This document shows positions 3,312-28,859 of a stretch of 39,858 nucleotides of DNA, in pieces (position 1 is the stretch's first letter; each line of letters starts with the position of its first letter). The stretch comes from a virus. Below the pieces are notes generated by a model, which saw only the letters and a program-made list of their open reading frames with translations, was not told the origin of the DNA and did no database searches. Position numbers and translations under genes: made by a program. The DNA is taken from the IMG/VR virus record IMGVR_UViG_3300050821_011111, positions 1-39,858 of that record; one strand, written 5' to 3'.

Positions 3312-3319
3312 CGTAGTTA
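3312..3319 (+). promoter_or_regulatory. CGTAGTTA leader motif, 10 nt before connector gene
   Basis: First copy of the recurring plus-strand motif; it lies between the sigma-like gene and the 3330 start. No clear Shine-Dalgarno follows (the spacer is pyrimidine-rich), so the motif may itself set transcription or translation initiation. Confidence 0.55.
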
Positions 3320-3329
3320 CCCCTTAACG

Positions 3330-3899
3330 ATGTATAACTCGCCGCTAATTCATCCCGTCTTCCCCGATCTCCTCGTCGCCGGAGATTCTTGGGACGTGAC
3401 GATGCCCTCCGGGGAATACGGCGGGGGGGATTGGACCGCCATTTTAACCTTCGGAGCCGGAGAAACGAAGCTCGTCTCGACCGCGATTCTCGACGGGGAT
3501 AATTTCCTCTGGACGATAGCGGGGACCGAGACCGCTCCGCTCGCGACCGTCGGAATAAATCCGTACTTGTTTACAATAACAGTAAGCGACGGCGTTCGCC
3601 GGTATACGGTCGATACGGGCCGGGTAAACGTCATTCCCGATATTACGACGACCGCGAATATAACGGGGACGAAGACCAACCTCCAGCTAATGCTAGAGGC
3701 GTGCGATAAATGTCTTACCGCGCTTCTAGGGCAGAAGACCACGATGGTTCAATTCGCGGGCCAGATGTACCAGTTCCACGAACTCGATAAGCTCTTTAAA
3801 GTCCGCCAAGCCCTCGCCGCCCAGGTCGCCGACGAGGCGGATTCTTTACGCGGCGCTTCCGCCTACCGGCAGTTCGTCTCGACCTTTATCGAGTACTAG
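3330..3899 (+). CDS. Head-tail connector, gpW-like C-terminal domain with beta-rich N-terminus
   Basis: The 189-residue protein has two parts. Residues 1 to about 105 are beta-rich and Ig/adhesin-like ('WTAILTFGAG', 'FTITVSDGVRRYTVDTG'). Residues about 115-189 form the helix-hairpin-helix pattern of lambda gpW-type connectors ('LEACDKCLTALLG', a short hairpin with 'MVQFAGQMYQFHELDKL', then a helix 'RQALAAQVADE'). Lambda gpW closes the portal after packaging, and the gene order terminase-gpW-portal is the same here. It starts 23 nt after the sigma-like gene and ends 3 nt before the portal. The family assignment is pattern-based; the N-terminal extension is not part of classical gpW. Confidence 0.6.
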   Translation: MYNSPLIHPVFPDLLVAGDSWDVTMPSGEYGGGDWTAILTFGAGETKLVSTAILDGDNFLWTIAGTETAPLATVGINPYLFTITVSDGVRRYTVDTGRVNVIPDITTTANITGTKTNLQLMLEACDKCLTALLGQKTTMVQFAGQMYQFHELDKLFKVRQALAAQVADEADSLRGASAYRQFVSTFIEY

Positions 3900-3902
3900 A
3901 AT

Positions 3903-5582
3903 ATGGCGATCCTTTCTAGCCTTCGTAACCTTTTCCTCGGGCCGCCGGTCTCGACGGCGATCCCGGAGATCCGGCTTAAGGAACGCAGTATCCCCGGGGA
4001 TACTGGACTTCCGTCGATTTCGCCCGGGACGCTCTGGTCGAAAGAGGACGCTTGGCTCGACCGGGCGCTTAATCCGTACAGCGAGCGTTTATACGACGCG
4101 GCGGCGGTCCGGCCCTATACCGCCGACTGGCAAGGGTTCGCGACGTCCGGTTCCTACGAGATCCTAAACGCCTGGCGGAGGATCTGCTATCTAGCGCGGG
4201 ATCTCGAACGGAACAATAGCCACGTTATCGCCTTTCTCCGGGAACTCCGGAATAACGTTCTCGGCTCGACCGGTATCCGGATGCAGCCCCGGGTCCGGCT
4301 TCAGCGGGGCGGTAAGCTTAATAAGCCGTTGAACGCCCTAATAAAGGAGGCGTGGCTCGATTTCCGGAGGAGCGGGGTTTACGAGGTAACGGAACAGTGG
4401 TCCGGAGCGACCCTCGACGAGATGTGCTTACAACGGATGGCGACGGACGGCGGAGCCCTCCTTAAGCTTCATCGGGGCTATCGGGGTAACAAGTACCGGT
4501 TCGCGGTCCAGGCGATGGAGGTCGACTCCCTCGATATAATGGCGAACACCTCGAACCCGCCGAACGCCAACCGGATAACCACCGGCGTCGAGACGAACGA
4601 TCTCGGAAAACCGGTCGCCTACCACTGCCTCGACTTCTATCAAGCGGACCTCTGGTCGAACCAGATTACCGGTAAACGGGTCCGGATCGAAGCGGAGGAT
4701 ATGCTTCATCTCTGGCTCCCGACTCGGATTACCGCCGTACGAGGGATCTCGTGGTTTACGTCCGCGATGATCGACCTACGGATGCTCGGGAAGTACGAGG
4801 AAGCGGCGGTTATTAGCGCCCGGAATGCGGCGGCGAAGATGGGCTTCTACGAGCGGACGATGGACGCTCCCCGTTACGAGGGCCAAGGCCAGCGGCCCGA
4901 CGGCTCGATTATCGAGGAAATTACGCCCGGCCTAATCGGGGAGCTTCCCCCGGGTTACACGTTTAAACCCTTCGATCCTGGTCAACCGAACGAACAATAT
5001 GCGCACTTCAAAAAAGGCATTTTGAGGACGATTTCGAGCGGGCTCGGGGTAATGTATTCGAGCGTCGCGAACGATCTAGAGTCGGTTAACTATAGCTCGG
5101 CCCGGTTCGGTAAAGACATCGAGAACGAAAACTGGCGTTGTCTCCAGCGGTTCCTCGTCGAACAGCTACTCGCGAAAATCTTTAAGCCTTGGCTAGAATG
5201 CGCGGTTCTGGCCGGGATTATCCCGATCCCGTTTAGTTCGGTCGACGCAGTCTGCGCGAGTATCGTTTTTCGGCCCCGGGGATATTCCTACGTCGATCCG
5301 ACGAAAGAAACTCAATCGGCCCTCGCTTCGATCGACGGCGGTCTCGCGACCCGGCGGAAAGAGCTAGGCGATCTTGGAATCGATTACGACGAGTTTCTCG
5401 ACGAGGTCGAGGCCGAACGCGACGAGCAGGAGGAACGCGGGATCGTTTTCGTTAACCCCTATTCCCGACAGCCGGAAGTCGAGGCGACGACCGAAGATCC
5501 TTCGAGTTCCCCGGGGAATCCTCCTTCGACGGAAAGTAGCGCCTCGACGAACGGTTCGGCGAAACCGGCGAAACGGGTCTAA
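3903..5582 (+). CDS. Portal protein, lambda gpB family
   Basis: Forms the dodecameric portal ring through which DNA enters the head. The 559-residue length fits the lambda portal family. Diagnostic stretches include 'RDLERNNSHVIAFLRELRNN' (about 99-118), 'DMLHLWLPTRITAVRGISW' and the conserved C-terminal-half signature 'LRTISSGLGVMYSSVANDL' followed by 'NYSSARFG'. The last 40 residues are Ser/Thr/Pro-rich and probably disordered. Codon use in 4978-5030, just before the conserved signature, departs from the rest of the gene (CAA, CAC, TTG, AGG codons). The start is three bases after the preceding stop. Confidence 0.93.
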   Translation: MAILSSLRNLFLGPPVSTAIPEIRLKERSIPGDTGLPSISPGTLWSKEDAWLDRALNPYSERLYDAAAVRPYTADWQGFATSGSYEILNAWRRICYLARDLERNNSHVIAFLRELRNNVLGSTGIRMQPRVRLQRGGKLNKPLNALIKEAWLDFRRSGVYEVTEQWSGATLDEMCLQRMATDGGALLKLHRGYRGNKYRFAVQAMEVDSLDIMANTSNPPNANRITTGVETNDLGKPVAYHCLDFYQADLWSNQITGKRVRIEAEDMLHLWLPTRITAVRGISWFTSAMIDLRMLGKYEEAAVISARNAAAKMGFYERTMDAPRYEGQGQRPDGSIIEEITPGLIGELPPGYTFKPFDPGQPNEQYAHFKKGILRTISSGLGVMYSSVANDLESVNYSSARFGKDIENENWRCLQRFLVEQLLAKIFKPWLECAVLAGIIPIPFSSVDAVCASIVFRPRGYSYVDPTKETQSALASIDGGLATRRKELGDLGIDYDEFLDEVEAERDEQEERGIVFVNPYSRQPEVEATTEDPSSSPGNPPSTESSASTNGSAKPAKRV

Positions 5583-5599
5583 GCGACGGAAAGCGGGGG

Positions 5600-5607
5600 C
5601 GTAGTTA
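5600..5607 (+). promoter_or_regulatory. CGTAGTTA leader motif, 6 nt before protease-capsid gene
   Basis: The motif sits in the 31-nt gap between portal and protease-capsid. The spacer to the ATG is GGGGTT, which could add weak Shine-Dalgarno character. Confidence 0.55.
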
Positions 5608-5613
5608 GGGGTT

Positions 5614-7809
5614 ATGGATCTCCCTCTCCAGTTTCGCGCTTTAACCCTAGTCCCCGAGAATCCGGTTAATCTCGAAGAGCGGACGGTCCGGATGAGCTTT
5701 TCGAGCCGGGAACCGGTCGCCCGGTTAGTCGAAGGGAAAATGTATTTCGAGCGTCTCTCGCACGAGGACTCCGCGATCGATAGCGTTCGGCTCGAAAATC
5801 GGAGCGTCCCGTTTCTCGATAATCATAATTGGGACCGGGTCGGCGGGAAGGTTATCGAGCACTCCGTCCGGGGCGATAAAGGGTACGCGACCGTGAAGAT
5901 GAGCCGTAACCCGCTCGGGACCGAGATGCTTAACGACATCTCCGACGGCGTCCGGACCGAGGTAAGCGTCGGGTACCGGGTAATGTCGATGAAGCGGACC
6001 GGGAGTATTGACGGGAAGGACGAGTTTACCGTGACGCGGTGGATGCCGTACGAGCTTTCGTTAGTCGGCGTTCCGGCGGACGCGACGATCGGGATCGGAC
6101 GGGCGGCGGAAGACCTTTATCCGGTCGAAATCGTCGACGAAGAACGGGCCGATAAGGCCGACGACGACGACGATCATTACTCGACGTACGGCGACGTCGA
6201 GTACGCCGATAAGAAGAATCATAAGTACCCGATCGATACGAAGGCGCACGCCAAAGCGGCCTGGAGCTACATAAATATGCCGAAGAATGCGGCGAAATAT
6301 AGCTCCTCGGAACTCTCGACGATTAAGGGCCGGATTAAGGCCGCCGCGAAGAAATTTGGGATCGAAGTTTCCGACGAAGAGCGGGCCGAAGTAGCCGCGA
6401 CGCCGGGCGTAGTTAGCGAGTTAGAACACCGAAAACTTATGGCCGATAACGAATCCACCGCCGCTAACGCTAAACCCTTCGTTGAGGTTGTCGTGGAGAC
6501 GCCCGACCAGATCCGCGAGATCGAACTAACCCGAACGCGGGAAATTATGGCGGTCGGGAACCGCTTCGGCGCAATTAAAGAAGCGGAAGAGTACGTCCGT
6601 TCCGGTAAAATGCTCGCCGACTTTAACTCCTATATCCTGGAGAACAAGGTCAATACCGCTCCGCCGATCTCGGTCCGGACCCTCGACTCGAACGTCGGGA
6701 CGAACGCCCGGGAGCGGAAGCAGTACAACCTAGCGAAAGCGATCCTAGAAGGCGCGGAACATATTTCCGGGTTCGAACGCGAGATGTCCTTAGAGGTCGC
6801 GAAACAGGTAGGCCGTAATCCGACCGGTTTCTTCATTCCCGAATTTTCCCTTATGCCGCAGGGGATGCCGGGAGTGTACTCCCGGGCCGGAGATCTTCTC
6901 GCGACCGGCGGCGCTTCGACCGGCGGCGCTCTCGTCCCAACGATCATCGATAATAGCCTTATCCCGTTCCTCCGGACGAAGATGGTAATTGGGCGGATGG
7001 GGGCGACGGTATTCTCCGGTCTAACCGGGAATTTCGCTATGCCCCGCCAGACGTCGACCGCGACGGCGACCTGGAATTCCGAAGTCCAGGACATTACCCG
7101 GTCCGGCCAAACTTTCGATCAGGTCGTTTTCCAACCCCAACGGCTCGGCGCGGTTACCGCGTTCTCGAAGTGGCTATTGCAACAGGCCGTCGTCGACGTC
7201 CAAACCGTCGTTCGCGACGATCTCCTAGAGACCGTCGCCCACGCCCAGGATAGCGCCGCTCTTTACGGGACCGGTATTAACAACCAGCCGGTCGGAATTT
7301 TCGCGACGACCGCCGATACCGTCTGGCCGTCCGCGTATACGAAGATGAGTCCTTCCGTAACCTTCGGGAGCGGGTACCCGACCTGGAGTAAAGTCGTCCA
7401 GTTCGAGGGTAATATCGAGAGTAATAATATCGATCTCGACGATGGGACGTGCGGGTACGTTACGAGCCCGAACGTTAAGACGCTCTGGAAGACGATGGCG
7501 AAAGTGGATCCCCGGGCGACGAATCAATTTTATCCTTCCTTTATCTGGGAGGACGGAGCGGCTCCGGGAGAAGGCCGGGTAAACGGCTTTAAGGCTCTCG
7601 CGACGAATCAGATTACCAACGACAAGGTAGTCTTCGGTCGCTGGCGGGATCTAATCTCGGCGATGTGGGGAGGGATCGATCTAATGACCGATCCGTATAC
7701 GCTAGCAAGTACCTTCCAGATCCGGGTTATTATTAACCTGATGTGCGACATCGACTTCCGGTACGGCCCCGCTTTCTGCTACTCGACCGACTCGGGGCTC
7801 TTCAAGTAA
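5614..7809 (+). CDS. Fused prohead protease - DUF6582-like linker - major capsid protein (HK97 type)
   Basis: One 731-residue frame carries three parts. Residues 1 to about 165 form an HK97-type (S78) prohead protease with candidate His71 ('FLDNHNWD'), Ser118 ('RTEVSVGYRV') and the 'YELSLVGVPAD' motif. Residues about 188-250 match the DUF6582 pattern ('YGDVEYADKK', 'YPIDTKAHAKAAWSYI', 'IKGRIKAAAKKFGI'). Residues about 276-731 form the HK97-fold capsid ('GGALVPTIIDNSLIPFLR', 'FAMPRQTSTATATW', 'NQPVGIFATT'). The fused protease would cleave itself from the coat protein during maturation. An internal ATG at 6439 (MADNES), 23 nt after an internal CGTAGTTA, could also yield separate capsid. A terminator follows the gene. 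Confidence 0.9.
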   Translation: MDLPLQFRALTLVPENPVNLEERTVRMSFSSREPVARLVEGKMYFERLSHEDSAIDSVRLENRSVPFLDNHNWDRVGGKVIEHSVRGDKGYATVKMSRNPLGTEMLNDISDGVRTEVSVGYRVMSMKRTGSIDGKDEFTVTRWMPYELSLVGVPADATIGIGRAAEDLYPVEIVDEERADKADDDDDHYSTYGDVEYADKKNHKYPIDTKAHAKAAWSYINMPKNAAKYSSSELSTIKGRIKAAAKKFGIEVSDEERAEVAATPGVVSELEHRKLMADNESTAANAKPFVEVVVETPDQIREIELTRTREIMAVGNRFGAIKEAEEYVRSGKMLADFNSYILENKVNTAPPISVRTLDSNVGTNARERKQYNLAKAILEGAEHISGFEREMSLEVAKQVGRNPTGFFIPEFSLMPQGMPGVYSRAGDLLATGGASTGGALVPTIIDNSLIPFLRTKMVIGRMGATVFSGLTGNFAMPRQTSTATATWNSEVQDITRSGQTFDQVVFQPQRLGAVTAFSKWLLQQAVVDVQTVVRDDLLETVAHAQDSAALYGTGINNQPVGIFATTADTVWPSAYTKMSPSVTFGSGYPTWSKVVQFEGNIESNNIDLDDGTCGYVTSPNVKTLWKTMAKVDPRATNQFYPSFIWEDGAAPGEGRVNGFKALATNQITNDKVVFGRWRDLISAMWGGIDLMTDPYTLASTFQIRVIINLMCDIDFRYGPAFCYSTDSGLFK
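6408..6415 (+). promoter_or_regulatory. Internal CGTAGTTA copy before possible capsid start
   Basis: An exact motif copy lies inside the protease-capsid frame, 23 nt before an in-frame ATG at 6439 that would begin the capsid part. The gap is longer than at gene starts (6-14 nt), so it may be chance or an internal start signal. Confidence 0.25.
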
Positions 7810-7831
7810 GAGACTTTTCTTAGATAGACGG

Positions 7832-7870
7832 AGCCCCCGGCGAATAAGAGTACCCGGGGGCTTTTCTTTT
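7832..7870 (+). terminator. Rho-independent terminator after capsid gene
   Basis: A 9-bp GC-rich stem (AGCCCCCGG with CCGGGGGCT, arms 7832-7840 and 7854-7862) is followed by the T-rich tract TTTTCTTTT. It ends about 32 nt before the next start codon, so the downstream gene needs its own start signal. Confidence 0.85.
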
Positions 7871-7886
7871 CCGGCGGGAGGGAGCG

Positions 7887-7894
7887 CGTAGTTA
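7887..7894 (+). promoter_or_regulatory. CGTAGTTA leader motif, 8 nt before 7903 gene
   Basis: The motif falls in the 32 nt between the terminator T-tract and the next ATG. That placement favours a transcription start function. The spacer AGGGGGAA also offers a Shine-Dalgarno-like purine run. Confidence 0.6.
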
Positions 7895-7902
7895 AGGGGG
7901 AA

Positions 7903-8244
7903 ATGTCCGAAGTCTCCGATAATTTCCTCGACGCCTTCTCCGACGCCCTTTCGGTCGACGGCGACGATATTCTCTTTACCTTCGCCGACGGGGTTCCCCG
8001 GCTTATAACCTGTCTCTGGGTTAAGGACGTCTCGGCCTATATGCATACCCATACCCACGGGACGAACCCGGTCCTTTACGAGAACCAGAAGATCGCCCTT
8101 ATCCGGGAGGCCGACGTTCCGGCGAACGCCCGGATGCGGGCCAACGATTATCTCTTCGTCGGTAATACCCGGTATAAGATTATGCAAGCCCGGTTAAAGG
8201 ATTCGATCTGGACGCTACAACTAATGATCCTGACGACGTCGTAA
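7903..8244 (+). CDS. Head-tail joining/neck protein (FII-like by position)
   Basis: The 113-residue protein has an acidic N-terminal helix followed by a beta-rich body: 'DILFTFADG', a central strand pair, then 'ANDYLFVGNTRYKIMQARLKD'. The pattern 'low-complexity start, strand, ..D.v.v.g..y.v....d..g...L.L' is common among lambda FII-type head-tail joining proteins. The position between the capsid and a gpZ-like gene agrees. No catalytic residues are visible. It is the first gene after the capsid terminator and ends 4 nt before the next start. Identification is mainly positional. Confidence 0.45.
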   Translation: MSEVSDNFLDAFSDALSVDGDDILFTFADGVPRLITCLWVKDVSAYMHTHTHGTNPVLYENQKIALIREADVPANARMRANDYLFVGNTRYKIMQARLKDSIWTLQLMILTTS

Positions 8245-8248
8245 ACGT

Positions 8249-8806
8249 ATGCCTCTAATCGATATATCGTGGCGGGTTGAGAATCTCGATAAGGTTATCT
8301 CGGATCTTTCGAAGATCCCCGGCGGAGCCGCTTTCGCCGTCTCGCACGCCATTATGGATACGCTTCGGGCGGTCCGGACCCAGGCGGCCCGCGCCGCCCG
8401 GGAACGTTATAATATTCCGTACGGCTGGGTTTTAAAAGCGTTCGGGACGCCGCGAGTAGCGGGAATGTACGGTCTTCTCCGGAGTACCGGAGCCCGGGCT
8501 CCGCTCCACCTTTTCCCCCACTCGGATATTCGACCGAGTGGCGTCCAGGTCCAGGAGGTTAAGGGCCAGACTATGCTTATCCGGCACGCCTTTCGCGAGG
8601 CCGTCGTCGGACGCGGAAGCGGGTATACCGGTTACCGGGGCGCTCCAAAGTATCCGATCCACGCGATCGTCGGTCGGGCCGCGCCGCAAATGATCGACGA
8701 ACAGAGTACCGTCTGGCCGAAGATCGAAGCGTTCGAGCGTTCGAAGCTCCAGGAGCGGCTCGCCCATTACATCGGAGCGATCCTCGGAGGGGATATTAAA
8801 GTCTAA
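8249..8806 (+). CDS. Minor tail protein, gpZ-like
   Basis: The 185-residue protein resembles lambda gpZ-family tail completion proteins. It has an N-terminal strand-helix unit ('WRVENLDKVISDLSKIPGG'), a long basic helix ('AVRTQAARAARERYNIP'), a central beta region, then 'IHAIVGRAAPQMI' and a C-terminal helix. In lambda, gpZ acts where the tail tip or terminator meets the head. The gene starts 4 nt after the previous stop and its TAA overlaps the next ATG (TAATG), implying translational coupling. No unusual features were seen. Confidence 0.6.
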   Translation: MPLIDISWRVENLDKVISDLSKIPGGAAFAVSHAIMDTLRAVRTQAARAARERYNIPYGWVLKAFGTPRVAGMYGLLRSTGARAPLHLFPHSDIRPSGVQVQEVKGQTMLIRHAFREAVVGRGSGYTGYRGAPKYPIHAIVGRAAPQMIDEQSTVWPKIEAFERSKLQERLAHYIGAILGGDIKV

Positions 8807-9610: not shown

Positions 9611-9644
9611 CGGCCCGGCGAGGGGGAGTAGCCGTCTCGCGGGG

Positions 9645-9652
9645 CGTAGTTA
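9645..9652 (+). promoter_or_regulatory. CGTAGTTA leader motif, 10 nt before tail sheath
   Basis: The motif lies in the 52-nt gap before the sheath gene; the spacer GCGGGTAGCT has no strong Shine-Dalgarno. Confidence 0.55.
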
Positions 9653-9662
9653 GCGGGTAGCT

Positions 9663-11189: not shown

Positions 11190-11199
11190 TCGCCTCCGG

Positions 11200-11207
11200 C
11201 GTAATTA
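11200..11207 (+). promoter_or_regulatory. CGTAATTA leader motif, 9 nt before tail tube
   Basis: Variant with A in place of G at position 5. The spacer GCCTCGACT lacks a Shine-Dalgarno, so initiation must rely on something else. Confidence 0.5.
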
Positions 11208-11216
11208 GCCTCGACT

Positions 11217-11732: not shown

Positions 11733-11750
11733 CGCTTTTCTCATAAGCAA

Positions 11751-11790
11751 AACCCTTCCCTTCTCCCGAAAAGAGGGAAGGGTTTTTTCG
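11751..11790 (+). terminator. Rho-independent terminator after tail tube gene
   Basis: Arms AACCCTTCCC (11751-11760) and GGGAAGGGTT (11775-11784) form a perfect 10-bp stem, running into TTTTTT (11783-11788). It separates abundant sheath/tube transcription from the chaperone and tape measure genes. Confidence 0.9.
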
Positions 11791-11805
11791 TTTCCGGGGG
11801 TTTCG

Positions 11806-11813
11806 CGTAGTTA
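11806..11813 (+). promoter_or_regulatory. CGTAGTTA leader motif, 14 nt before tail chaperone
   Basis: The motif occurs in the 37 nt between the terminator and the chaperone ATG, the second case in which it is the main candidate for restarting expression. The spacer GAGGGCGAAAGAAA has purine-rich, weak Shine-Dalgarno character. Confidence 0.6.
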
Positions 11814-11827
11814 GAGGGCGAAAGAAA

Positions 11828-12214: not shown

Positions 12215-12384
12215 GCCTAGAACGGGCGGCTACTCCGGACTACGACCCGGTCGAGACCTTACGGGGGCTTTATCTCTGCCTCTCGCACGAGCGCGGCGAT
12301 ATAGCGTATTGGCTCTCGTTACCGATCTTGGAAGCGGCGATCTGGATGAAAAAACTTTCCGATCTTCATAAAGAGTCGTCGTAG
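11828..12384 (+). CDS. Tail assembly chaperone, -1 frameshift long form (E+E'-like)
   Basis: After a -1 slip at 12193-12199 the reading continues without a stop to TAG 12382-12384, adding about 61 residues. The extension contains 'ATPDYDPVETLRGLYLCL' and 'IAYWLSLPILEAAIWMKKL', a helical segment typical of the second half of chaperone fusions that bind tape measure protein. No start codon or ribosome site for a separate gene exists in 12215-12384, so frameshifting is the simplest explanation of this open stretch. The stop codon lies inside the next leader motif. Confidence 0.75.
12193..12199 (+). other. Programmed -1 frameshift site (slippery TTTTTTA)
   Basis: In the zero frame the codons are AAT TTT TTA, so both tRNAs can re-pair one base upstream on the T run. 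The heptamer fits X XXY YYZ (T TTT TTA), one of the most slip-prone sequences known, and P2 uses a similar T run in gene E. Confidence 0.75.
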
Positions 12385-12387
12385 TTA
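12380..12387 (+). promoter_or_regulatory. CGTAGTTA leader motif, 10 nt before tape measure
   Basis: The TAG of the frameshifted chaperone is part of this motif copy. The spacer CCCTCCGTAT has no Shine-Dalgarno. Confidence 0.5.
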
Positions 12388-12397
12388 CCCTCCGTAT

Positions 12398-14620
12398 ATG
12401 GCCGAAGGTAAGGTCGAAGCCTTAAATATCGAGATAATGGGGAAGCTAGACCCTTCCCTAATCGCGGCGGTCAACGCCGCCAAGGCCCGCCTTAAGGAAC
12501 TCGGAGCTGACGCCCGGACTTCTTCCGAGTTTATGAAGCGGTTCTACGCTCAGGCGTTCGACGGTATGGGGGCGAGCGCGAAGAAAGGGGAGAAGGAGGT
12601 AAAGGGCGTCTTCGCCCGGATCGCCGAGGCGGGAAAGAAATCCGCCGAGCATATCTCGCACTCTTTTAAACACGCCTTCCACGAAATCGGGACGGAGGTA
12701 ATGCGGGGGATAGGGTTCGGGGCCGGGTTCTCGATCGTCGGTAATATCTCTCAGGGGATCGGTAACGCTATGGAAAGCGTTAAGGAGTTCGCCCACGGCG
12801 CGGTCGAGATCCACGCCGAACGGGAAGCCCTCCAGTCGACAATCCACTCGATCCTCGCTTCCCAAGGCCGGGGCGGCCAAGCGGCGGCGATGGATATGAT
12901 GTTCCGGTCGTTCGAGGGCCAGAAGGGTCCCGAGACCTACCAGCAGCTCTCCCAGGCGACTAGCCTTCTTCTCGGCGCGGCTCCGGAACGGTTTAAGACG
13001 GTCGGATCGGTCGAGACCCAGTTACAGCATCTCGCCGACGTTTCCCGGGACGCGACCGCCTTTAGCGGCGTTACCCAGGCCTACACCCGCATCCTCGCCG
13101 AGGGTAAGGTCGACGCCGCCCATCTTCGGGAGATGTCGGTCGATACCGGATTTAATTTTAAGAAGGCGATGGCGGACGCGTTAAAGCTCTCTCCGGAGCA
13201 GTTAACGGACCTAATGAAGAAGGGGAAGATAACCGGGAAGCAATCGATCGATGCCCTAATGAAAGGGATGGAGCTTATGACCGGGCCCGGCGGCGCGGCC
13301 TACCAGCACGCCGAAGCCCAGCTCCAAGGGTTAAACGGGATCTTTAAACGCTTCGAGGGCCACTTCCAAGACTTCCAGGATTCGTTCGGGATGCAGATGG
13401 AGAACTTTCTCCGCCCGATCGCGAACGAGGTCTTAAAATATCTTACCCCGTCGGTCTTAACCCACGCCTTCGACCGGTTCGAAGGCCTCGCGAAAGGGCT
13501 CGGGATCTCGATCTCCTACCTAATAGAGGCTTTCGGTAAGGAAGGGAACATTACCAAGTTACATACGCTAGGCGACGCGGTAAAAGGCTTCTTCGCGACC
13601 GTTTTTAATTTCGGTAAGGAGCCGATGACCTTGACCGGGCATATCTCGCCGAACGAGATCGGGGAGATGATGAACCCCCGGTGGCAAGCGAAGCTCGACG
13701 AATTAGCGAAGACGGTTAGCGGAGCCGCCGAGACGCTCTCCGGGATTATAAAGGCGATTACCGAGAATTGGGAGAATATTAAGAAGGGGATGCTCGCCGT
13801 CGCGGAGGTTTGGACGGCGTTTAAGATTGCGGGCTGGATAAAGAATATCGCCGAGTTTTTCGGAGCCGTCCCCTATATCAATACGGCGGCGATTAACGCC
13901 GGAGTTATTAATACGGGCGTCGCGGCGGGAGTCGGACCGGGAGTCGCCGGAGCCGGAGGAGGAGTCGTCGCGGGAGAAGCCGCTACCGGAGCCGGAGGCG
14001 CGACCTTACTATCCCGGTTGGGTTTCGGTCTCGGAGTCGGTACGGTTACGTTAGCCGAGTTGGGGATCGCTTGGGGGGTCTCGAAGATGGCCGACGTCGT
14101 CGGGGACGCCCTCATAAAGAAATATTTACCGGATCTCGGTAAGGGCCAGACGATAAAGGGCGAGGAATACCGGAGAATCCAGGCCTCCGAGGAGCAAGCC
14201 CGTCTACAAGGGGCTTCTCCGGCGAAGCTCGCCCGTTTCCAGGAGACCCTCGATAACCTCTTTAAGGGGATGAATAAGGCGGAGCAGGAAAGCGTCTTCG
14301 CCCCGGCCCGGGCCCGGGCGATGAAGGCCTCGCTTATCCCTCAGCCCGACATCCGTACCCAGCGCGAAATCTCTCCTCCCGGAGAGGATAAGATTCGGGG
14401 CTCGCTCGATGGAGTCTCGAATAGTTTCGCCGCGCTTCCCGATAAAGCCTCCGGGATTTCGAGTAACCTCGATACCGTCGCCTCGACCTTCTCCGGGTTA
14501 CCGGGGAAAGCCTCGGCGGTTTCTTCGGCGATCGATTCGTTCGTCTCGGCGATTAACTCGGCGGTCGCGAAGGCGAACGCCTCGATCGCTTCGATTAACG
14601 CGGCGGCGATGCTCGTTTAG
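12398..14620 (+). CDS. Tail tape measure protein
   Basis: The 740-residue protein sets tail length and probably travels through the tube during infection. It has an N-terminal domain of the tape-measure type ('HAEREALQSTIHSILASQG', then 'VTQAYTRILAEGKVDAAHLREM'), long amphipathic helices, and a hydrophobic Gly/Ala-rich segment near residues 474-570 that could insert into membrane. The C-terminus is low-complexity Ser/Ala repeats. With about 1.5 angstrom per residue a tail near 110 nm would be expected. The stop overlaps the opposite-strand gene that follows by three bases. Confidence 0.9.
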   Translation: MAEGKVEALNIEIMGKLDPSLIAAVNAAKARLKELGADARTSSEFMKRFYAQAFDGMGASAKKGEKEVKGVFARIAEAGKKSAEHISHSFKHAFHEIGTEVMRGIGFGAGFSIVGNISQGIGNAMESVKEFAHGAVEIHAEREALQSTIHSILASQGRGGQAAAMDMMFRSFEGQKGPETYQQLSQATSLLLGAAPERFKTVGSVETQLQHLADVSRDATAFSGVTQAYTRILAEGKVDAAHLREMSVDTGFNFKKAMADALKLSPEQLTDLMKKGKITGKQSIDALMKGMELMTGPGGAAYQHAEAQLQGLNGIFKRFEGHFQDFQDSFGMQMENFLRPIANEVLKYLTPSVLTHAFDRFEGLAKGLGISISYLIEAFGKEGNITKLHTLGDAVKGFFATVFNFGKEPMTLTGHISPNEIGEMMNPRWQAKLDELAKTVSGAAETLSGIIKAITENWENIKKGMLAVAEVWTAFKIAGWIKNIAEFFGAVPYINTAAINAGVINTGVAAGVGPGVAGAGGGVVAGEAATGAGGATLLSRLGFGLGVGTVTLAELGIAWGVSKMADVVGDALIKKYLPDLGKGQTIKGEEYRRIQASEEQARLQGASPAKLARFQETLDNLFKGMNKAEQESVFAPARARAMKASLIPQPDIRTQREISPPGEDKIRGSLDGVSNSFAALPDKASGISSNLDTVASTFSGLPGKASAVSSAIDSFVSAINSAVAKANASIASINAAAMLV

Positions 14621-15111
14621 TTTTCGTCGATTCGCGGGGCGGGGAAGCGAAGACTAGCGTCGTCCGTCTGGAGGAGTAACTCCCGGTTTTTAACATCTTC
14701 CTCCGCTATCTCGAAGAGGATCGCGCCCGGTTTTTCCGTTTTAGGTTCGAGGCTAACTCCTCCGTTTTCGCCGGTAAGAAAAAAGGGAATCGGTTTATGG
14801 GTATTACCCGCTCCGTCTACCAGTAGGAAGAGGTTACCGAAGTTGAGTGAGGTCGATTCGTGCCCTTGGGTATTACGGATAGTAAAGGCGATCCGGACGT
14901 AGAGAGCGCCTTTCGGCGGATGCATTCCCGGAAAATTACCGAAGGATTTTAGGGCGCGGTATTCGGTAATTTCGAAGTGACACCGAGCAGTTTCGAAACT
15001 TTTTCTTTCCTCCTTACTAAGGGCTGGAGGAGAAGGTTTATGTTCATTCCAGAAATAGAGCGCGACCGGGATACAAATTATAACCGATAGAAATATTTTT
15101 AAGTTTTTCAT
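14617..15111 (-). CDS. Membrane-anchored DUF4352-like moron in the tail operon
   Basis: The 164-residue protein has an N-terminal hydrophobic segment (residues about 5-20) acting as signal or anchor, without a clear lipobox, and a beta-sandwich body. 'GALYVRIAFTIRNTQGHES' near residues 69-87 is the conserved strand of DUF4352/telokin-like domains ('y..v.vtv.N.g'). It is transcribed against all surrounding tail genes and its stop overlaps that of the tape measure. It is preceded by the leader motif found before the integrase-cluster genes, 10 nt from the ATG. A cell-surface role in the lysogen, such as superinfection exclusion, is inferred only from location and topology. Confidence 0.7.
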   Translation of the reverse strand: MKNLKIFLSVIICIPVALYFWNEHKPSPPALSKEERKSFETARCHFEITEYRALKSFGNFPGMHPPKGALYVRIAFTIRNTQGHESTSLNFGNLFLLVDGAGNTHKPIPFFLTGENGGVSLEPKTEKPGAILFEIAEEDVKNRELLLQTDDASLRFPAPRIDEN

Positions 15112-15121
15112 ATACCCTCTC

Positions 15122-15143: not shown

Positions 15144-15157
15144 TTTTCCGGGAGTCG

Positions 15158-15165
15158 CGTAATTA
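15158..15165 (+). promoter_or_regulatory. CGTAATTA leader motif, 10 nt before tail protein X
   Basis: The motif occupies the divergent 64-nt region between moron and gene X, facing right, and supplies the only visible start signal for the right-hand baseplate genes. The spacer GCGGAAAGAG is purine-rich. Confidence 0.55.
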
Positions 15166-15400: not shown

Positions 15401-15407
15401 TCTCTCT

Positions 15408-17315: not shown

Positions 17316-17323
17316 CGTAATTA
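17316..17323 (+). promoter_or_regulatory. CGTAATTA leader motif, 7 nt before gpU-like gene
   Basis: The motif fills almost the whole 15-nt gap between the gpV stop and the gpU start; no other signal fits there. Confidence 0.5.
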
Positions 17324-17330
17324 AAGTCGT

Positions 17331-18008: not shown

Positions 18009-18011
18009 AGT

Positions 18012-18500: not shown

Positions 18501-18504
18501 AGCG

Positions 18505-18512
18505 CGTAGTTA
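18505..18512 (+). promoter_or_regulatory. CGTAGTTA leader motif, 11 nt before baseplate J
   Basis: The motif is in the 23-nt gap between gp25-like and J genes; spacer ACGGGCGAGAT. Confidence 0.55.
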
Positions 18513-18523
18513 ACGGGCGAGAT

Positions 18524-19732: not shown

Positions 19733-19735
19733 CGA

Positions 19736-22231: not shown

Positions 22232-22241
22232 AGACGCGAAG

Positions 22242-22249
22242 CGTAGTTA
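22242..22249 (+). promoter_or_regulatory. CGTAGTTA leader motif, 9 nt before first tail fibre
   Basis: The motif lies in the 27-nt gap before the fibre cluster; spacer GCGAACGAG. Confidence 0.55.
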
Positions 22250-22258
22250 GCGAACGAG

Positions 22259-23773
22259 ATGCCTCTTTCGCCGATCGTTCTAACTAACGCCGCGCTCTCG
22301 GCGATTAACACTATTCTCGGGAGCGGCGGTACGCTCGCCTTCTCGAAGGTAATGGCGGGAAACGGTTTCGCTACCGGAGCCGACGTCCCGGCGAATTTCG
22401 TCGAGCTTAAAAGCCCGGTAATGGAGGCCAACCCGACCTCGATAAATATCGCCACCCTTTATCAGACGACAATTCGCGCTGACTTGAATTCGGCGAACGC
22501 CCCGTACGCCTTTAAGATTAATGAGCTGGGGGTTTTCTACTCGCTAAACGGGGGGACGGATTTTCTCTTCGGTTATTCGAGTACGAGCGCCGACGACGGC
22601 GATACCTTATCTCCGCCGGTTAGCGGGGCGAGCGCGATAATTAAGGACTACGTTCTTCCGGTCGTCTACGCGAGGGACGTCCCGGTCGGAACGACGGTTA
22701 CCTTTACCCCGACCGTCGACCTCCATTCCGTCCGGCATCTTTCAAGTGGGGTCGATCCGATCCCGAACGCGACGAGTAATATCGGGGGACTCTGCCCCCG
22801 GACGCCGGGCGATACGACCCGGGTTTTACTCGGGGGCCCGACCGCGAGCTTCGGTACGCTTCCTCCGCACGCCCCCTCCCATCTCGATAACGGGTCCGAT
22901 CCGCTACCGGTCGCGACGACGACCCGGACCGGCGCGTTAACGAAACTTTCCGGCGACGCGAACTCTTACCTAAACGGGGTTGGAGCCTGGGCGGCGGGAG
23001 TCGCTCCGGGGATCGTTCTCGATTTCGCCGGAGGAACCGCTCCCGTAGGTTTTTTAATTTGCGATGGGCAAAGTTATTCGACGACAAACTACGCCGCTCT
23101 TTTCGCCGTAATCGGGTACACCTATGGAGGGTCGGGTGCGAGTTTCCAAGTCCCCGATTGCCGAGGTCGTACGACGGTCGGAGCGGGAATCGGAGCCGGT
23201 CTAACGACCCGGCCTTTAGCCTCGAAGTTCGGCGAGGAAACCCATACCCTTAGTACCGCCGAGATCCCGAATCATAACCACCCGCTCAGCGATCCGGGCC
23301 ACGCCCACTCGGTCGCGGACGGCGGTCACTCGCACGGCGTTAGCCAGAGCCCCCACGCTCACGGGGTAAGCGACCCAACTCACGCCCACTCGGTCCTCGA
23401 TAACGGGCATAACCATCTGGCCTTTTTTAGCACGAACTCGGACGGAGGGATTCCGCCTCAAGCGGGCAGGGATAGCATTCCGCCCTATGGGAGCGCCGGA
23501 GCCCACTCCGACTACGGGGTCGTCTACGGGACGACCAATGTCTGGTGGTTGGACGCCTATACTTCGACGAGCCGGACCGGGATCGGGATCTACGGGGCGG
23601 CGACTGGAATTGGAATTTTTGGAGCGAACGCGAACATCGGGATTAACGGCTCGGGCGCGGGGATCGGAATCTACGGTTCGGGAACCGGGATAAGTATCGC
23701 GGCGACGGGAGGGGGAGCGGCCCATAACAACTGCCAGCCTAGCATCGCGCTCAATAAGGTTATCAAATACTAG
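22259..23773 (+). CDS. Tail fibre with P2 gpH-like N-terminus, collar domain and histidine-rich region
   Basis: The 504-residue protein starts with a baseplate-attachment domain like P2-type fibre proteins ('VLTNAALSAINTIL', 'FSKVMAGNGFATGADVP'). Residues about 247-310 form a phage collar domain ('GFLICDGQSYSTTNYAALFAVIG', 'FQVPDCRGRTTVGAG'). Residues about 336-388 hold many HxH motifs (HNH, HAH, HSH), which in trimeric fibres coordinate metal ions. Residues about 439-485 are hexapeptide-like repeats (GIGIYG, GIGIFG, IGINGSG). It is the first of three fibre genes; the C-terminal region probably contacts the receptor. Confidence 0.8.
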   Translation: MPLSPIVLTNAALSAINTILGSGGTLAFSKVMAGNGFATGADVPANFVELKSPVMEANPTSINIATLYQTTIRADLNSANAPYAFKINELGVFYSLNGGTDFLFGYSSTSADDGDTLSPPVSGASAIIKDYVLPVVYARDVPVGTTVTFTPTVDLHSVRHLSSGVDPIPNATSNIGGLCPRTPGDTTRVLLGGPTASFGTLPPHAPSHLDNGSDPLPVATTTRTGALTKLSGDANSYLNGVGAWAAGVAPGIVLDFAGGTAPVGFLICDGQSYSTTNYAALFAVIGYTYGGSGASFQVPDCRGRTTVGAGIGAGLTTRPLASKFGEETHTLSTAEIPNHNHPLSDPGHAHSVADGGHSHGVSQSPHAHGVSDPTHAHSVLDNGHNHLAFFSTNSDGGIPPQAGRDSIPPYGSAGAHSDYGVVYGTTNVWWLDAYTSTSRTGIGIYGAATGIGIFGANANIGINGSGAGIGIYGSGTGISIAATGGGAAHNNCQPSIALNKVIKY

Positions 23774-23998
23774 ATGGCTATACATTATAAAATCGATCTC
23801 CTAAACGACGAAGCGCTACAGACCTTCGAAGTAAAAGTCGGAGACGTCTTAACGCTCGACGTCCCTTCGGGAGACGGCGGTTTTACTTCGGGCTATCACG
23901 AGGTCCTCGCGATCGAGAAGGACGATCTCGGGATCTACGACGGAGCCCATTATACCCGGGTTACGCTAACCTTAAAGGAGACGACGGCTCCGGAGTAA
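23774..23998 (+). CDS. Small hypothetical protein in fibre cluster
   Basis: The 74-residue protein begins at the ATG immediately following the fibre TAG. It is beta-rich with 'FEVKVGDVLTLDVPSGDGGFTSGYHEVLAIEKDDL', suggesting a small beta-barrel. No cysteine or catalytic pattern is visible. Its tight coupling to the fibre suggests a chaperone or accessory subunit, but this is inference. Confidence 0.6.
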   Translation: MAIHYKIDLLNDEALQTFEVKVGDVLTLDVPSGDGGFTSGYHEVLAIEKDDLGIYDGAHYTRVTLTLKETTAPE

Positions 23999-24005
23999 AG
24001 GCGAG

Positions 24006-24395
24006 ATGGCTACGATTAATTATCCAATCGTCGTCGAGGCGAACCGGGATTTTTATCTCCCGGTAAATCTTACGTCGTCGCTCGGTAACCCAGCGAATTT
24101 GAGTTCTTACCTCTGCATGATGACGGTCAAGAAGGCGGTAACCGATACCGACGCGAACGCCCTTTATAAGTCGGCCCCCTGGAGCCAGAATTTACCCTTC
24201 GGCTCGTTTACTTTTAAAATTTCCCGAACGCAAAATAAGGGCTGGTACCTAATGCCGCCGAGCGGTTCGGGCCCGATTTCGACGACGATCGTTTACGACG
24301 TTTCGGTCCAGGACGCCGCCGCCGTCCCGAATTGGACGACGTTAATGACGGGGCCGGTTTCCGTCGTCGCGGTCGTTACCCAATCTATTCCCTAA
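24006..24395 (+). CDS. Fibre-associated beta-sandwich protein (paralogue A)
   Basis: The 129-residue protein has an 'ANRDFYLPVNLTSSLGNPANLSSYLCMMTVKKAV' N-terminus like the Ig-like N-domain of BppU-type receptor-binding adaptors ('d.t..v.f...d..g...Dls'). The end 'MTGPVSVVAVVTQS' matches the end of the gene at 25787 ('VAGPLLVNDSP'), and both lie directly before a collagen-containing fibre. It starts 7 nt after the upstream stop. The shared arrangement suggests each serves its neighbouring fibre; the function is inferred. Confidence 0.6.
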   Translation: MATINYPIVVEANRDFYLPVNLTSSLGNPANLSSYLCMMTVKKAVTDTDANALYKSAPWSQNLPFGSFTFKISRTQNKGWYLMPPSGSGPISTTIVYDVSVQDAAAVPNWTTLMTGPVSVVAVVTQSIP

Positions 24396-24411
24396 AAATC
24401 CTCTTTATCCT

Positions 24412-25785
24412 ATGCCGACTACGATTACTCCGCAGCCCCAAGCGATCGTTCTCTCCCTTCCCGAATCGAAGGGCGATAAAGGCGATAAAGGCGATCGAGG
24501 GATTCAGGGGATCCAAGGTAACCCGGGGCAACCGGCGAACTGGCGGGGAACCTGGTCGTCGACGACGACCTACGGTCTAAACGACGGGATCTATTATAAC
24601 GGGGGAAGCTACATCGCGATCGCCCCGAATATTAATAAGCCGCCCGACGTTAATCCGGGTTTCTGGCAGCAAGTCGGAGCCCAAGGGCTACAGGGGATCC
24701 AGGGCGTCCAGGGGGTACAAGGGATCCAGGGCGTTAATACTTTTACGACGACGACGACGGATTTTACCGTTCCGTCGGTCGGGTTTACGAATCCCGTCTC
24801 CGTTCTCGACGCGAGCTGGGTCGTACCGGGCCAGTACATCTGGTTAGCGGGCGGCGCGGGAGCGGGCGTCGGCGGTTCGCTCCAGGTCCAATCCAAGGCC
24901 GGGAACTCCTTAACCCTTTTAAATCCGGCTCCGCTTCCCGGAGTCGCGGTCGGCGGAACTTTCGTCGCGCTCGGGGCGCTCTTTAGTTCGGGCGGGGCGA
25001 CCGGAAGTAAAGGCGATAGCCTCCCGATCGGCTCGATCTTTATGTTCGGGTCGAATACGCCTCCGGCGGGTTGTCTGCTCTGCGACGGGACGGCGGTTAG
25101 CCGCTCGACCTATAACGTCCTCTTCGGGATTTTCGGGACGAGCTTCGGAGCCGGGAACGGTTCTTCGACCTTTAATCTCCCCGATCTCCAAGGCCGCTTC
25201 CCGCTCGGGACCGGAGCCGGGGGCGGTTTAACGACCCGGGCCCTCGCCGCGAAAGGGGGCGAAGAGACGCACGCTCTCGCGATCGGCGAACTCGCCGCCC
25301 ATACCCATCCCGGTATTAATCATCTCCACCCCTTTACCGGCGTCGACCATCTCCACTCGCTCCAGGGGCATACTCACGTCGGCGTCAATCACCTCCATAA
25401 TATGGACCATTACCATATTATCCCGGCGGGTCAATTCTCCCACTCCCATACGTACGTCTGGCCCGCGAACGCCGGAAACCAGTGGGGCGTCGCGACTGCC
25501 GCTTGGGGTCAGCTTACTAGTAATACCGGCGTTACGGCTCTTCCCCAAGGCAATACCAATTACGCTAGCCAGACGAACGGGGCCTGGGTTAATACGGGAG
25601 CGTGCGATAGAGATTTAACGACGAGCGGGCCGAACGTTGGGACGACCGGCGCTTCGGATCGTTCGCTCGCTTCTTCGACGGGAGCGGCGGACCGCGACTT
25701 AACGACCGGGGCGACCGGGTCCGGGTCGGGGCATAACAATATGCCGCCCTTCCTAGGGATAGCTTTTATGGTAAAGGCCTCCTAA
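24412..25785 (+). CDS. Collagen-like tail fibre with CBM5/12-like domain and collar domain
   Basis: The 457-residue protein has two collagen-type GXY stretches (about 21-41 and 91-107) flanking a small CBM5/12-type domain (about 43-89, 'WRGTWSSTTTYGLNDGIYYN..SYIAI..N..PP'). Residues about 204-270 form a collar domain ('GSIFMFGSNTPPAGCLLCDGT', 'FNLPDLQGRFPLG') and about 293-350 hold many HTH/HLH/HSH histidine motifs. The C-terminus is Ala/Thr/Gly repeats. It shares the collar and histidine layout with the 22259 fibre, so the two are paralogous modules. Chitin or glycan binding by the CBM-like domain is inferred from pattern. Confidence 0.8.
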   Translation: MPTTITPQPQAIVLSLPESKGDKGDKGDRGIQGIQGNPGQPANWRGTWSSTTTYGLNDGIYYNGGSYIAIAPNINKPPDVNPGFWQQVGAQGLQGIQGVQGVQGIQGVNTFTTTTTDFTVPSVGFTNPVSVLDASWVVPGQYIWLAGGAGAGVGGSLQVQSKAGNSLTLLNPAPLPGVAVGGTFVALGALFSSGGATGSKGDSLPIGSIFMFGSNTPPAGCLLCDGTAVSRSTYNVLFGIFGTSFGAGNGSSTFNLPDLQGRFPLGTGAGGGLTTRALAAKGGEETHALAIGELAAHTHPGINHLHPFTGVDHLHSLQGHTHVGVNHLHNMDHYHIIPAGQFSHSHTYVWPANAGNQWGVATAAWGQLTSNTGVTALPQGNTNYASQTNGAWVNTGACDRDLTTSGPNVGTTGASDRSLASSTGAADRDLTTGATGSGSGHNNMPPFLGIAFMVKAS

Positions 25786-25786
25786 T

Positions 25787-26170
25787 TTGAATACGAGCGC
25801 CTATAGCGTCCCGATTACCGTCTTCCGGAACCGTTCCTGGTTGCAGAGCTTTACGCTTTACGACTCCGGCGGTAACCCTTTCGACGTCTCGAACGATACT
25901 CTCGCCTTAGCGATTATCCCGACCGGGCCCGGGGTTAGCGGGGCGGCTCCGCTCGTTACCGAGACCGGCCCGCTCGTTACCGGGGACGGCGGTAACGCCG
26001 TCGTCTTTACGGTCGGGGACGAGGAGATGGGCGGGCTAACGGCGGGAGCCCCCTATAACTGGCAGTTTATCCGCCGTCCGGGCTCGGGCTCGGGCGCGGC
26101 CTCCTATAGTACGGTCGTCGTCGCCGGGCCGCTTCTCGTTAACGATTCTCCCCCTCTCCCTTCTCCGTAA
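25787..26170 (+). CDS. Fibre-associated beta-sandwich protein (paralogue B)
   Basis: The 127-residue protein reads from a TTG start one base after the preceding stop; no upstream ATG exists in this frame. 'VPITVFRNRSWLQSFTLYDSGGNPFDVSNDTLALAII' resembles BppU-type N-domains and paralogue A at 24006. The C-terminus 'STVVVAGPLLVNDSPPLPSP' leads directly to the collagen fibre gene whose ATG follows at once. The role is inferred from pairing with the downstream fibre. Confidence 0.6.
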   Translation: MNTSAYSVPITVFRNRSWLQSFTLYDSGGNPFDVSNDTLALAIIPTGPGVSGAAPLVTETGPLVTGDGGNAVVFTVGDEEMGGLTAGAPYNWQFIRRPGSGSGAASYSTVVVAGPLLVNDSPPLPSP

Positions 26171-28171
26171 ATGCCCGACATCGCCGTAACGAGTAACGAG
26201 AATAAGATCGTCGTCTACAATACGACGGAGGAGATCCTCGTCGTTTTAGGACAGCCGATGGTCCCCGTCGAAGGCGGTAGCCAGGGGCCTCCCGGCCCGA
26301 TCGGTCCTCCCGGTCCTATTGGTCCGCAGGGCCCGAACGGCGGTCCCGGACCGAAAGGGGATAAAGGCGATAAAGGCGATACGGGGGCGACCGGTAGTAC
26401 GGGACAGCCCGGCCCGATAGGCCCGGCGGGAAGTACCGGCGCTCAGGGGCCTCAAGGGATCCAGGGGGCGACCGGCGCTACGGGCTCCCAAGGCCCAGTC
26501 GGCCCGACCGGCTCCCAGGGGATTCAGGGGCCGAAAGGCGATACCGGCGATACCGGCCCCGCTGGCCCTCAGGGCCCGCAGGGTATCCCCGGAACCTCGG
26601 GATCGGGTTCAGGAGATATGTCGAAATCGACCTACGATACCGCGAATCGCGGTTACGTAGATCGGGCGGTCCTAGCGGATAAAGCGACGGTTCTTTCGAC
26701 CGCCGGTACGACTCATCAATTCTGGAAGAACGGGAACGCTTGGGGGACGCCGGATTACTCGGATCTAACCGGAACGCCCGCGATCCCGGCGGCGAGTAGT
26801 ACGAACCCGGCGATGGACGGGACGGTCGCGGTCGGAACCGGGACGACCTTCGCCCGCTCGGACCACGTCCATCCGAGCGATACGAGTCGGCTCGCGGTCG
26901 GAGCCGCGCCGACGGCGCACGCTCCGAGTCATATTTCCGGTAGCGATATTATCCCGACCTTTACCCGGACGGCGATCGGGCTCGCTCCGGCTTCCGGCGG
27001 AAGTTCCGGAACGGCGAATTTTCTCTGCGAGAACGGGACTTGGTTAAATCCGGCGAGCGGAGCGATCGCCTATAACTCGGAGACGTGGAATTGGACGACG
27101 AAGACGACCGACGCGAATACCTCCGGGCAGCTCGGCCTTAACGCCGGACCCTGGGCCTCGGCGACGGCGATTAATGTAAACGTACAGGCTTCGGATAACC
27201 GGGATATGACGACGGCGTTCCAGACGCTTTTCGTTAGCGGGAACGAAATCCTGCTCCAGATGAAGACGGACTCGACCCGGTTCGCCCGCTATACCTTAAC
27301 CGGGAACGGAACGGCGACCGGGAACTGGTGGTCGTTTCCGGTAACCTGTACGTCGAGCGGAGGAACGATCTTAACCGGGAATACCCCGACGATTTTAACC
27401 CTAATCTCCCACTCCGGCCTTCTTTCCGGGGCCGGGGATATGTTAAAATCGACCTACGATACGAATCTCGACGGCGTCGTCGACTCGGCGTCGAGTGTAC
27501 CCTGGAGCGGGGTAACCGGCGCTCCGGCGGTTCCGGCGGCTTCGACGACGACCCCGGCGATGGACGGGACGGCGACGATAGGCGTCGGGACGGCCTACGC
27601 CCGTAACGATCACGTCCATCCGACGGATACTTCGCGACTCGCGGTCGGAGCCGCGCCGACGGCACACGCTACATCTCATAAGAGTGGCGGTTCGGACGTT
27701 CTCGCGCTCGATACCTTCGGAGCGACGACGGACGTTACTACACTCAATTCGAGCCTTACCGCGCACGGCCTCTTACCGAAGCTCGGCGGCGGAACGACGA
27801 ACTTTCTCCGGGCCGATGGAGCGTGGGCTCCGCCGCCTTACGATCTCGCCCTTTTCGCTCCCGGTAAACCGACGGCGAGCGCCCTTATCTCGCGCTTCCT
27901 CTTTAACCGCTCCGTTAGTTTCCCGATCGGTCTAACCGGTTCCGTCGCTTCGGCGGGAACGGCGGCGACCGCCTCGACGGTTTTTAACCTCGCGAAGAAC
28001 GGATCGAATATCGGGACGGTAACCTTCGCGGCGAGCGGGACTTCCGGAACCTTTAGCTTTAGCTCCGCCGTTTCGTTCGCGAGCGGGGACGTCTTAACGA
28101 TAACCGCTCCGGCGACTCCGGATACGACGCTCGCCGATATTAGCGTAACCCTTACCGGAACCCGGCTCTAA
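26171..28171 (+). CDS. Collagen-like tail fibre with duplicated DHVHP modules
   Basis: The 666-residue protein has a short N-terminal domain, then an uninterrupted collagen GXY tract at about 39-143 ('[19 protein letters not shown]' and following), a long trimeric rod. Two copies of a 70-residue module follow (about 195-262 and 443-515): 'PAMDGT...[31 protein letters not shown]' against 'PAMDGT...[29 protein letters not shown]'. Each is linked to a 'GDM.KSTYDT' element. The C-terminal beta domain (about 540-666) is a candidate receptor-binding tip. The 'DHVHP' motif is frequent in phage fibres. Confidence 0.8.
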
Positions 28172-28178
28172 ACCCCCG

Positions 28179-28859
28179 ATGGCGATTACCGTACCGCAAA
28201 TTAAAAAGGGGAATTCGAGTAGCGGGACCTCCGCTTCCGTTACCTTAGCGACGACGACGACCGGAAATACGCTCGTCGTCGTAGTTAGCGCGTACAACGC
28301 CGCCGCGAACTTAACGGTAACGACGATGGGGGTCTCGACGGGCTCGATTAGCTCGGCGGCTAAATTCGGCGCGTTCGCCGGAATAGCGGGAACTTACGCG
28401 CCGATTGAGGTCTGGGTAGCGCCGAATATTACCGGCGGGACGACTCCCCTCCTAGTCGTTAATCTTAGCGGAACGACGAGCGCGACGGATTTTTTCGCCT
28501 ACGAATTAGCCGGGATGTCCTCGGCGACGGTTCCGGACGGGACGGCGGCGGGAGCGGCGAACGCGGCGGCGACGGCTTGCGTTACCCCGATTATAACGAC
28601 GGCGAACGCGGGGAGTATCGTTTTCGGGGTTTTCTCCCCGGCGAACGTTATATCGAGCGGGGGGAGCGGCTGGACGGGATCGCTCGTCGGGCAGACGACC
28701 GGTTCGTTAACCGAGTACGCGATTCAAACCGCCCCCGGAACGTCCCAAGCGACCGCTACCCAGAATCCCTCCGGAGTTTACGCGAGCTACATTTTCGCGC
28801 TCGCTCCGACGGGCGGCGTCGTTCCGTCCCGGCCTCCCCAAATAATCGTAGTTAATTAA
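28179..28859 (+). CDS. Putative surface/fibre tip protein, beta-sandwich
   Basis: The 226-residue protein is rich in Ala, Thr, Ser and Gly with regular strands ('SASVTLATTTTGNTLVVVVSAY', 'IEVWVAPNITGGTTPLLVVN', 'ASYIFALAPTGG'). This jelly-roll-like composition is common in viral or surface proteins ('gn.lvv......' pattern). It follows the collagen fibre by 7 nt and ends with TAA inside the leader region of the next gene. It may be an additional tip or decoration protein. An exact CGTAGTTA at 28280-28287 falls inside the coding region and encodes part of a Val-Val-Ser run. Confidence 0.5.
   Translation: MAITVPQIKKGNSSSGTSASVTLATTTTGNTLVVVVSAYNAAANLTVTTMGVSTGSISSAAKFGAFAGIAGTYAPIEVWVAPNITGGTTPLLVVNLSGTTSATDFFAYELAGMSSATVPDGTAAGAANAAATACVTPIITTANAGSIVFGVFSPANVISSGGSGWTGSLVGQTTGSLTEYAIQTAPGTSQATATQNPSGVYASYIFALAPTGGVVPSRPPQIIVVN
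28847..28854 (+). promoter_or_regulatory. CGTAGTTA leader motif, 6 nt before holin-cassette gene
   Basis: The motif overlaps the last codons of the preceding gene and ends 6 nt before ATG 28861; spacer ATTAAT. Confidence 0.5.

Follow-up and report, generated by a model that had tools for sequence, protein, structure and literature searches.

The late genes of a small temperate myophage are very probably transcribed from a set of dispersed promoters in which CGTARTTA serves as the −10-type element and is read by a phage-encoded ECF-like sigma factor. The motif was detected in the IMG/VR virus record IMGVR_UViG_3300050821_011111, a stretch of 39,858 nt that we refer to as the window. Temperate myophage genes are present: a gpA-type terminase, a lambda-type portal, a protease-capsid fusion, tail sheath, baseplate and fibres; the integrase is encoded on the strand opposite to the late genes. 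A database search found no near phage records for the window. The group is known only from metagenome contigs, and all claims on motif, sigma factor and promoters made here rest on sequence. Contig L006 adds 517 nt to the left of the window start and carries the start of a terS-like gene (419-910) with its motif; the right end of the window does not join L006, thus the window is an incomplete genome fragment. If correct, this reading identifies, for an uncultured phage group, the late-gene switch, the sites at which it acts and the probable reader of these sites.

Altogether, 14 copies of CGTARTTA are located on the plus strand of the window and none on the minus strand (Table 1). The original prediction listed these 14 exact copies, 12 before gene starts and two elsewhere (6408, 28280), and a rescan found every one of them in its place; 12 of the 14 end 6-14 nt ahead of an ATG. 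The 7/8 match that it had reported before gene 37600 is likewise present, as CGTAGTTC. The first late gene, terS, also has a motif (L006:403), which is located 115 nt left of window base 1 and therefore outside the window. The comparison with shuffled sequence that had been proposed as a check was carried out with two null models. In 100 dinucleotide shuffles a mean of 3.5 copies was obtained on both strands, and 14 was never reached. For the second null, synonymous codons and intergenic bases of the late region were shuffled 2000 times, and 30 starts were scored with a limit of 25 nt. The 14 copies observed in the late region compare with a null mean of 0.34 (maximum 4), and the 12 of 30 starts that have a motif within 25 nt compare with a null mean of 0.05 (maximum 2).

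Table 1. Motif copies, terminator-like hairpins and the proposed sigma gene in the window. Genes are named by their start position.
Feature	Position	Strand	Remarks
ECF/sigma-70-like protein gene, 295 aa, proposed motif reader	2419..3306	+	directly after terL; Pfam, TIGR02937, AlphaFold model
CGTAGTTA before head-tail gene 3330	3312..3319	+	10 nt to ATG; same place in L010, L009, L012, L013
CGTAGTTA before protease-capsid gene 5614	5600..5607	+	6 nt to ATG; AAGC at −19 (5581-5584)
CGTAGTTA inside capsid ORF	6408..6415	+	GAAGT at 6388-6392; in-frame ATG 23 nt downstream, codon 276
Terminator-like hairpin	7832..7862	+	24 nt before motif 7887
CGTAGTTA before gene 7903	7887..7894	+	8 nt to ATG; orthologous sites compared
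CGTAGTTA before tail sheath gene 9663	9645..9652	+	10 nt to ATG; GAGTA at 9625-9629
CGTAATTA before head-closure gene 11217	11200..11207	+	9 nt to ATG; orthologous place has CGTAGTTA, CGTATTTA or GGTAATTT
Terminator-like hairpin	11749..11786	+	19 nt before motif 11806
CGTAGTTA before tail-chaperone-like gene 11828	11806..11813	+	14 nt to ATG; orthologous sites compared
CGTAGTTA before tape-measure gene 12398	12380..12387	+	10 nt to ATG; orthologous sites compared
CGTAATTA before baseplate-hub gene 15176	15158..15165	+	10 nt to ATG; orthologous sites compared
CGTAATTA before tail gene 17331	17316..17323	+	7 nt to ATG
CGTAGTTA before baseplate-wedge gene 18524	18505..18512	+	11 nt to ATG
CGTAGTTA before tail-fibre gene 22259	22242..22249	+	9 nt to ATG
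Exact copy inside gene 28179	28280..28287	+	no start nearby, no conservation seen
CGTAGTTA before gene 28861	28847..28854	+	6 nt to ATG
Variant CGTAGTTC before MarR-like HTH gene 37600	37583..37590	+	9 nt to ATG; AAGT at −19; weaker candidate
Variant CGTACTTA, GAAATTA upstream	39773..39780	+	candidate from two-part scan; ORF from ~39802 runs off the window

A gap of at least 15 nt to the previous gene is found for 11 of the 12 motif genes and for one of the 18 late genes without motif (Fisher p about 2.5e-6, the gap before terL being taken from L006). Two genes deviate: 28861 carries the motif although its gap measures 1 nt, and 24412 is without motif although its gap measures 16 nt. Such a restriction to gapped genes is what promoters heading short operons would give. 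The spacers between motif and ATG contain neither AGGA nor GGAG in any of the 12 cases, and GAGG occurs in one (11828); the absence of Shine-Dalgarno words claimed for several spacers thus applies to 11 of 12. That the motif follows shortly after two terminators also proved correct, with terminator-like hairpins just upstream of 7887 and 11806. Including the relatives described below, seven motif copies from both motif groups have such a hairpin ending 10-24 nt upstream (window 7887 and 11806; L022:8168; L012:6402; L026:3760 and 7744; L027:12364), which leaves about 25-45 nt for transcription to restart before the start codon.

The putative reader is encoded by an unannotated gene whose start overlaps the terL stop. 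Its sigma matches in Pfam and TIGR02937 are all below the curated cut-offs when taken singly: Pfam Sigma70_r2 matched the 2419 protein with an E-value of 0.0055 and the best family member with 2.9e-4, TIGR02937 matched the best family member with 2.6e-5, and ECF-type models were matched in 8 of 12 members. An AlphaFold model based on twelve homologues reached a mean pLDDT of 75, with most of region 2 at about 90 (the single sequence gave 37 and was unusable). Model residues 12-104 align with region 2 of SigC (Z 10.2, 2.2 Å over 86 residues). The alignment with sigma-E (1or7) covers 155 residues including a second helical domain, up to residue 215, with an rmsd of 18.7 Å, so that the placement of the second domain is not fixed. 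Each of the fifty structural matches listed is a sigma factor or a model that contains one, at Z-scores of 10-12, which are not decisive for helical proteins. Foldseek E-values were weak (best 0.12), and the viral library was headed by a phage ECF sigma factor. Among solved structures, a profile search gave weak ECF matches among ribosomal proteins, and a sequence search with the window protein alone gave unrelated weak matches. Sequence profiles did not detect a region 4 helix-turn-helix in the 2419 protein, the genome collection contained no homologue of it, and PHROGs offered no clear family. Since several weak matches agree, the predicted product is probably an ECF-like member of the sigma-70 family; it appears to belong to a separate, previously unannotated sigma lineage.

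As relatives we collected IMG/VR contigs that carry a sigma-like gene as well as related genes for terminase and portal. In L009-L016, L022, L033 and L034 the sigma is 42-59% identical to that of the window, and CGTARTTA, at some sites CGTATTTA, is found before orthologous genes. All CGTA-type relatives tested have the motif ahead of the capsid gene (L009 in the form AGTAGTTA), and all five that reach the head-closure gene have it there too. The motif is kept at orthologous sites even though the proteins of these genomes are roughly 45-75% identical; a shift by one gene was seen in L012-L014 and L016, where the orthologue of 9302, rather than the sheath gene, is preceded by it. L007 and L018, which have related terminases, contain neither the sigma-like gene nor an enriched motif of the CGTARTTA kind.

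The sigma of L027 is only 30% identical to that of the window, and the top strand-specific word of this contig is GGTAATTT, with eight copies on the late strand; they precede starts, among them those of portal and capsid, by 5-14 nt. The portals of L026 and L027 are 79% identical, and L026 shares GGTAATTT; the L026 contig stops before the place of the sigma gene, and the GGTAATTT-type sigma was read in L027 alone. A search with the L027 sigma as query found only L027 itself. CGTARTTA and GGTAATTT are nearly exclusive between the two phage groups. In the alignment a sigma helix near residues 90-108 is well conserved in CGTA-type members and altered in L027; this helix may set promoter specificity. 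The data suggest that motif and sigma diverge together, as seen in one split with one readable second-type sigma, which supports a promoter function. With the natural pair CGTARTTA/GGTAATTT, sigma-promoter specificity is directly testable.

Pooling of sites from several genomes revealed an additional upstream element. Of 58 pooled sites, 16 have AAG at −19 relative to the motif start, and this combination of word and offset ranks first among CGTA-type sites and, separately, among GGTAATTT-type sites (p below 0.001 in circular shifts, with pooled sites that are partly orthologous). The consensus is GAAGY at −20 to −16, a spacing that fits a −35/−10 pair, and the pooled sites thus have the form of a two-part promoter in which the spacing is fixed; GAAGY was not significant when the 13 window sites were taken alone. 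At low scores the two-part scan lacks specificity (at score 9, 12 sites versus 7.0 in Markov sequence), and only high scores were used. The smallest spacer between motif and start among 60 sites is 5 nt, where 3 would have been allowed. With the geometry of T4 late promoters (motif at −13 to −6) transcription would start six nucleotides after the motif, and a 5-nt spacer would be exactly leaderless. Since no spacer is shorter than 5 nt and Shine-Dalgarno words hardly occur, most late mRNAs probably have leaders of 0-10 nt. Host sigma-70-type promoter sites are no more frequent in the window than in shuffles, and host-type promoters were rejected on this result.

The copy at 6408 is located within the capsid ORF, after the protease part. 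Each of the 11 capsid ORFs examined has an internal copy of its lineage's own motif type, located at codon 186-344; 14-29 nt further on there is an in-frame ATG, usually followed by Ala-Glu. With weights derived from other genomes, 6408 has the best two-part score in the window. The original prediction had set aside both 6408 and 28280. Conservation does not support 28280, possibly a chance occurrence; 6408, conserved in all relatives tested, looks functional and most likely acts as an internal promoter from which a shorter capsid protein is made separately.

For sigma activity, start sites, leader lengths, nested product and feedback we infer the following. Host RNA polymerase with the ECF-like sigma from 2419-3306 would use CGTARTTA as −10-type element of the late promoter set. 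CGTARTTA would be recognised by region 2, and the degenerate GAAGY, located about 15 nt upstream of it, by a putative C-terminal helix-turn-helix part. Initiation would take place about 6-7 nt downstream of the motif, so that most late mRNAs would begin 0-10 nt before the AUG and be translated without Shine-Dalgarno sequence. Genes with near-zero gaps behind a promoter gene would be co-transcribed, probably with coupled translation, and some late units would be set apart by terminator-promoter pairs. The capsid-internal site would yield an extra transcript for the shorter capsid protein. The motif before terS would place the terS-terL-sigma unit under the sigma's own control, and late expression would reinforce itself. 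Under this model near-leaderless mRNAs would account for most of the virion protein synthesis, and a nested capsid product would arise via the internal promoter. On balance we think it somewhat more likely than not that a hitherto undescribed lineage of phage ECF-like sigma factors controls a dispersed, near-leaderless late regulon in small temperate myophages, with promoter/sigma co-divergence and a conserved internal promoter for a nested capsid.

Besides a −10-like element, the original prediction had considered a non-Shine-Dalgarno ribosome signal, for instance through 16S rRNA pairing outside the anti-Shine-Dalgarno. The constant location 5-15 nt before the start codon and the near absence of Shine-Dalgarno words would agree with this, and the complement TAACTACG may resemble a conserved 16S stretch before the 530 loop. 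However, ribosome recruitment accounts neither for the −35-like element with its fixed spacing nor for the terminators just upstream, the co-occurrence with the sigma gene or the GGTAATTT type, and it leaves unexplained the internal sites and the tightly spaced genes that have no motif. We rejected it because of the −35-like element, the terminators and the altered motif of the related group, and consider it very improbable. The sigma gene, the altered motif, the terminators and the pooled −35-like element strongly favour the −10-like element.

A different possibility is that the late promoters are real and are read by a host sigma or another phage activator, the 2419 protein having another role. 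The sigma activity of this protein is predicted, and other types of late activators exist, such as Ltr of S. aureus phage phi13 (PMC13123087). We regard this as unlikely, given the sigma-70 scan, the co-occurrence of motif and sigma-like gene, the different motif where the readable sigma has diverged, and a model in which region 2 and a second helical domain match sigma factors. That chance or codon usage produced the pattern has a negligible probability: two exact copies do lie inside genes, one of them (28280) without conservation support, but 12 starts against a maximum of 2 in the shuffles and the conservation at orthologous places in diverged genomes refute such an artefact. A late promoter set read by the phage sigma remains the preferred reading.

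Like the ECF sigma factors sigma-E, SigC and SigW, which gave the best structural and profile matches, the phage protein is associated with two-part promoters. A CGTA-type −10 element is known for SigW. Unlike ECF factors, the phage sigma was seen in phage contigs only, has GAAGY rather than GGAAC, carries a conserved C-terminal extension and has profile scores below cut-off. T4 late promoters (TATAAATA) consist of one 8-nt element at −13 to −6 that is read by the sigma gp55, and promoter and sigma diverge together (Aeh1; PMC1524935). A phage-encoded sigma, here predicted, and a single 8-nt element near many late genes are shared with T4. However, the T4 promoter is a −10-type element only, whereas the pooled sites here are enriched for a −35-like element at constant distance; T4 in addition uses gp33 and the gp45 clamp, and the present genome is that of a small temperate phage. 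SPO1-type sigma factors control classes of phage genes, and infection depends on them (PMC9429907); SPO1 is a large lytic Bacillus phage, and the likeness lies in the role of the sigma. By analogy, the system would work like the late systems of T4 gp55 and SPO1, with promoters outside the T4 definition. In AR9, many genes are likewise preceded by a short late consensus, and 13 late promoters are located within ORFs (PMC5312081), but AR9 uses its own multisubunit polymerase and has 5′ leaders of 26-491 nt. In Gram-positive temperate phages the Ltr/RinA late regulator gene is located near the terminase, as is the putative one here, and controls packaging and structural genes (PMC13123087). Those regulators activate one promoter via upstream repeats, whereas about 13 dispersed single motif sites without such repeats precede genes here.

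Several further features were observed. A reverse ORF of 164 aa (14617-15111, minus strand) with a weak match to phrog_806 (unknown function) occupies most of a 555-nt gap within the late cluster. It contains two GGTAATTT words, at 14933 (−) and 14965 (+); an operator function of this pair was dropped, with no detectable repeat there. In L014 (7104, −) and L015 (2613, −) a gene of ~130 aa is encoded opposite to the late cluster, with CGTAGTTA 7-9 nt before its ATG. The region 38632-38707 (+) of the window matches the Rfam Proteo-phage-1 RNA with 44.4 bits (gathering score 42); Rfam matches were absent from the five relative loci searched. A glycosyltransferase gene (35403-36275, +), the start of which is preceded by a CGTAATTC word, matches TET-associated glycosyltransferases and the T4-type glucosyl-HMC glucosyltransferase family, which suggests that the phage DNA contains modified bases.
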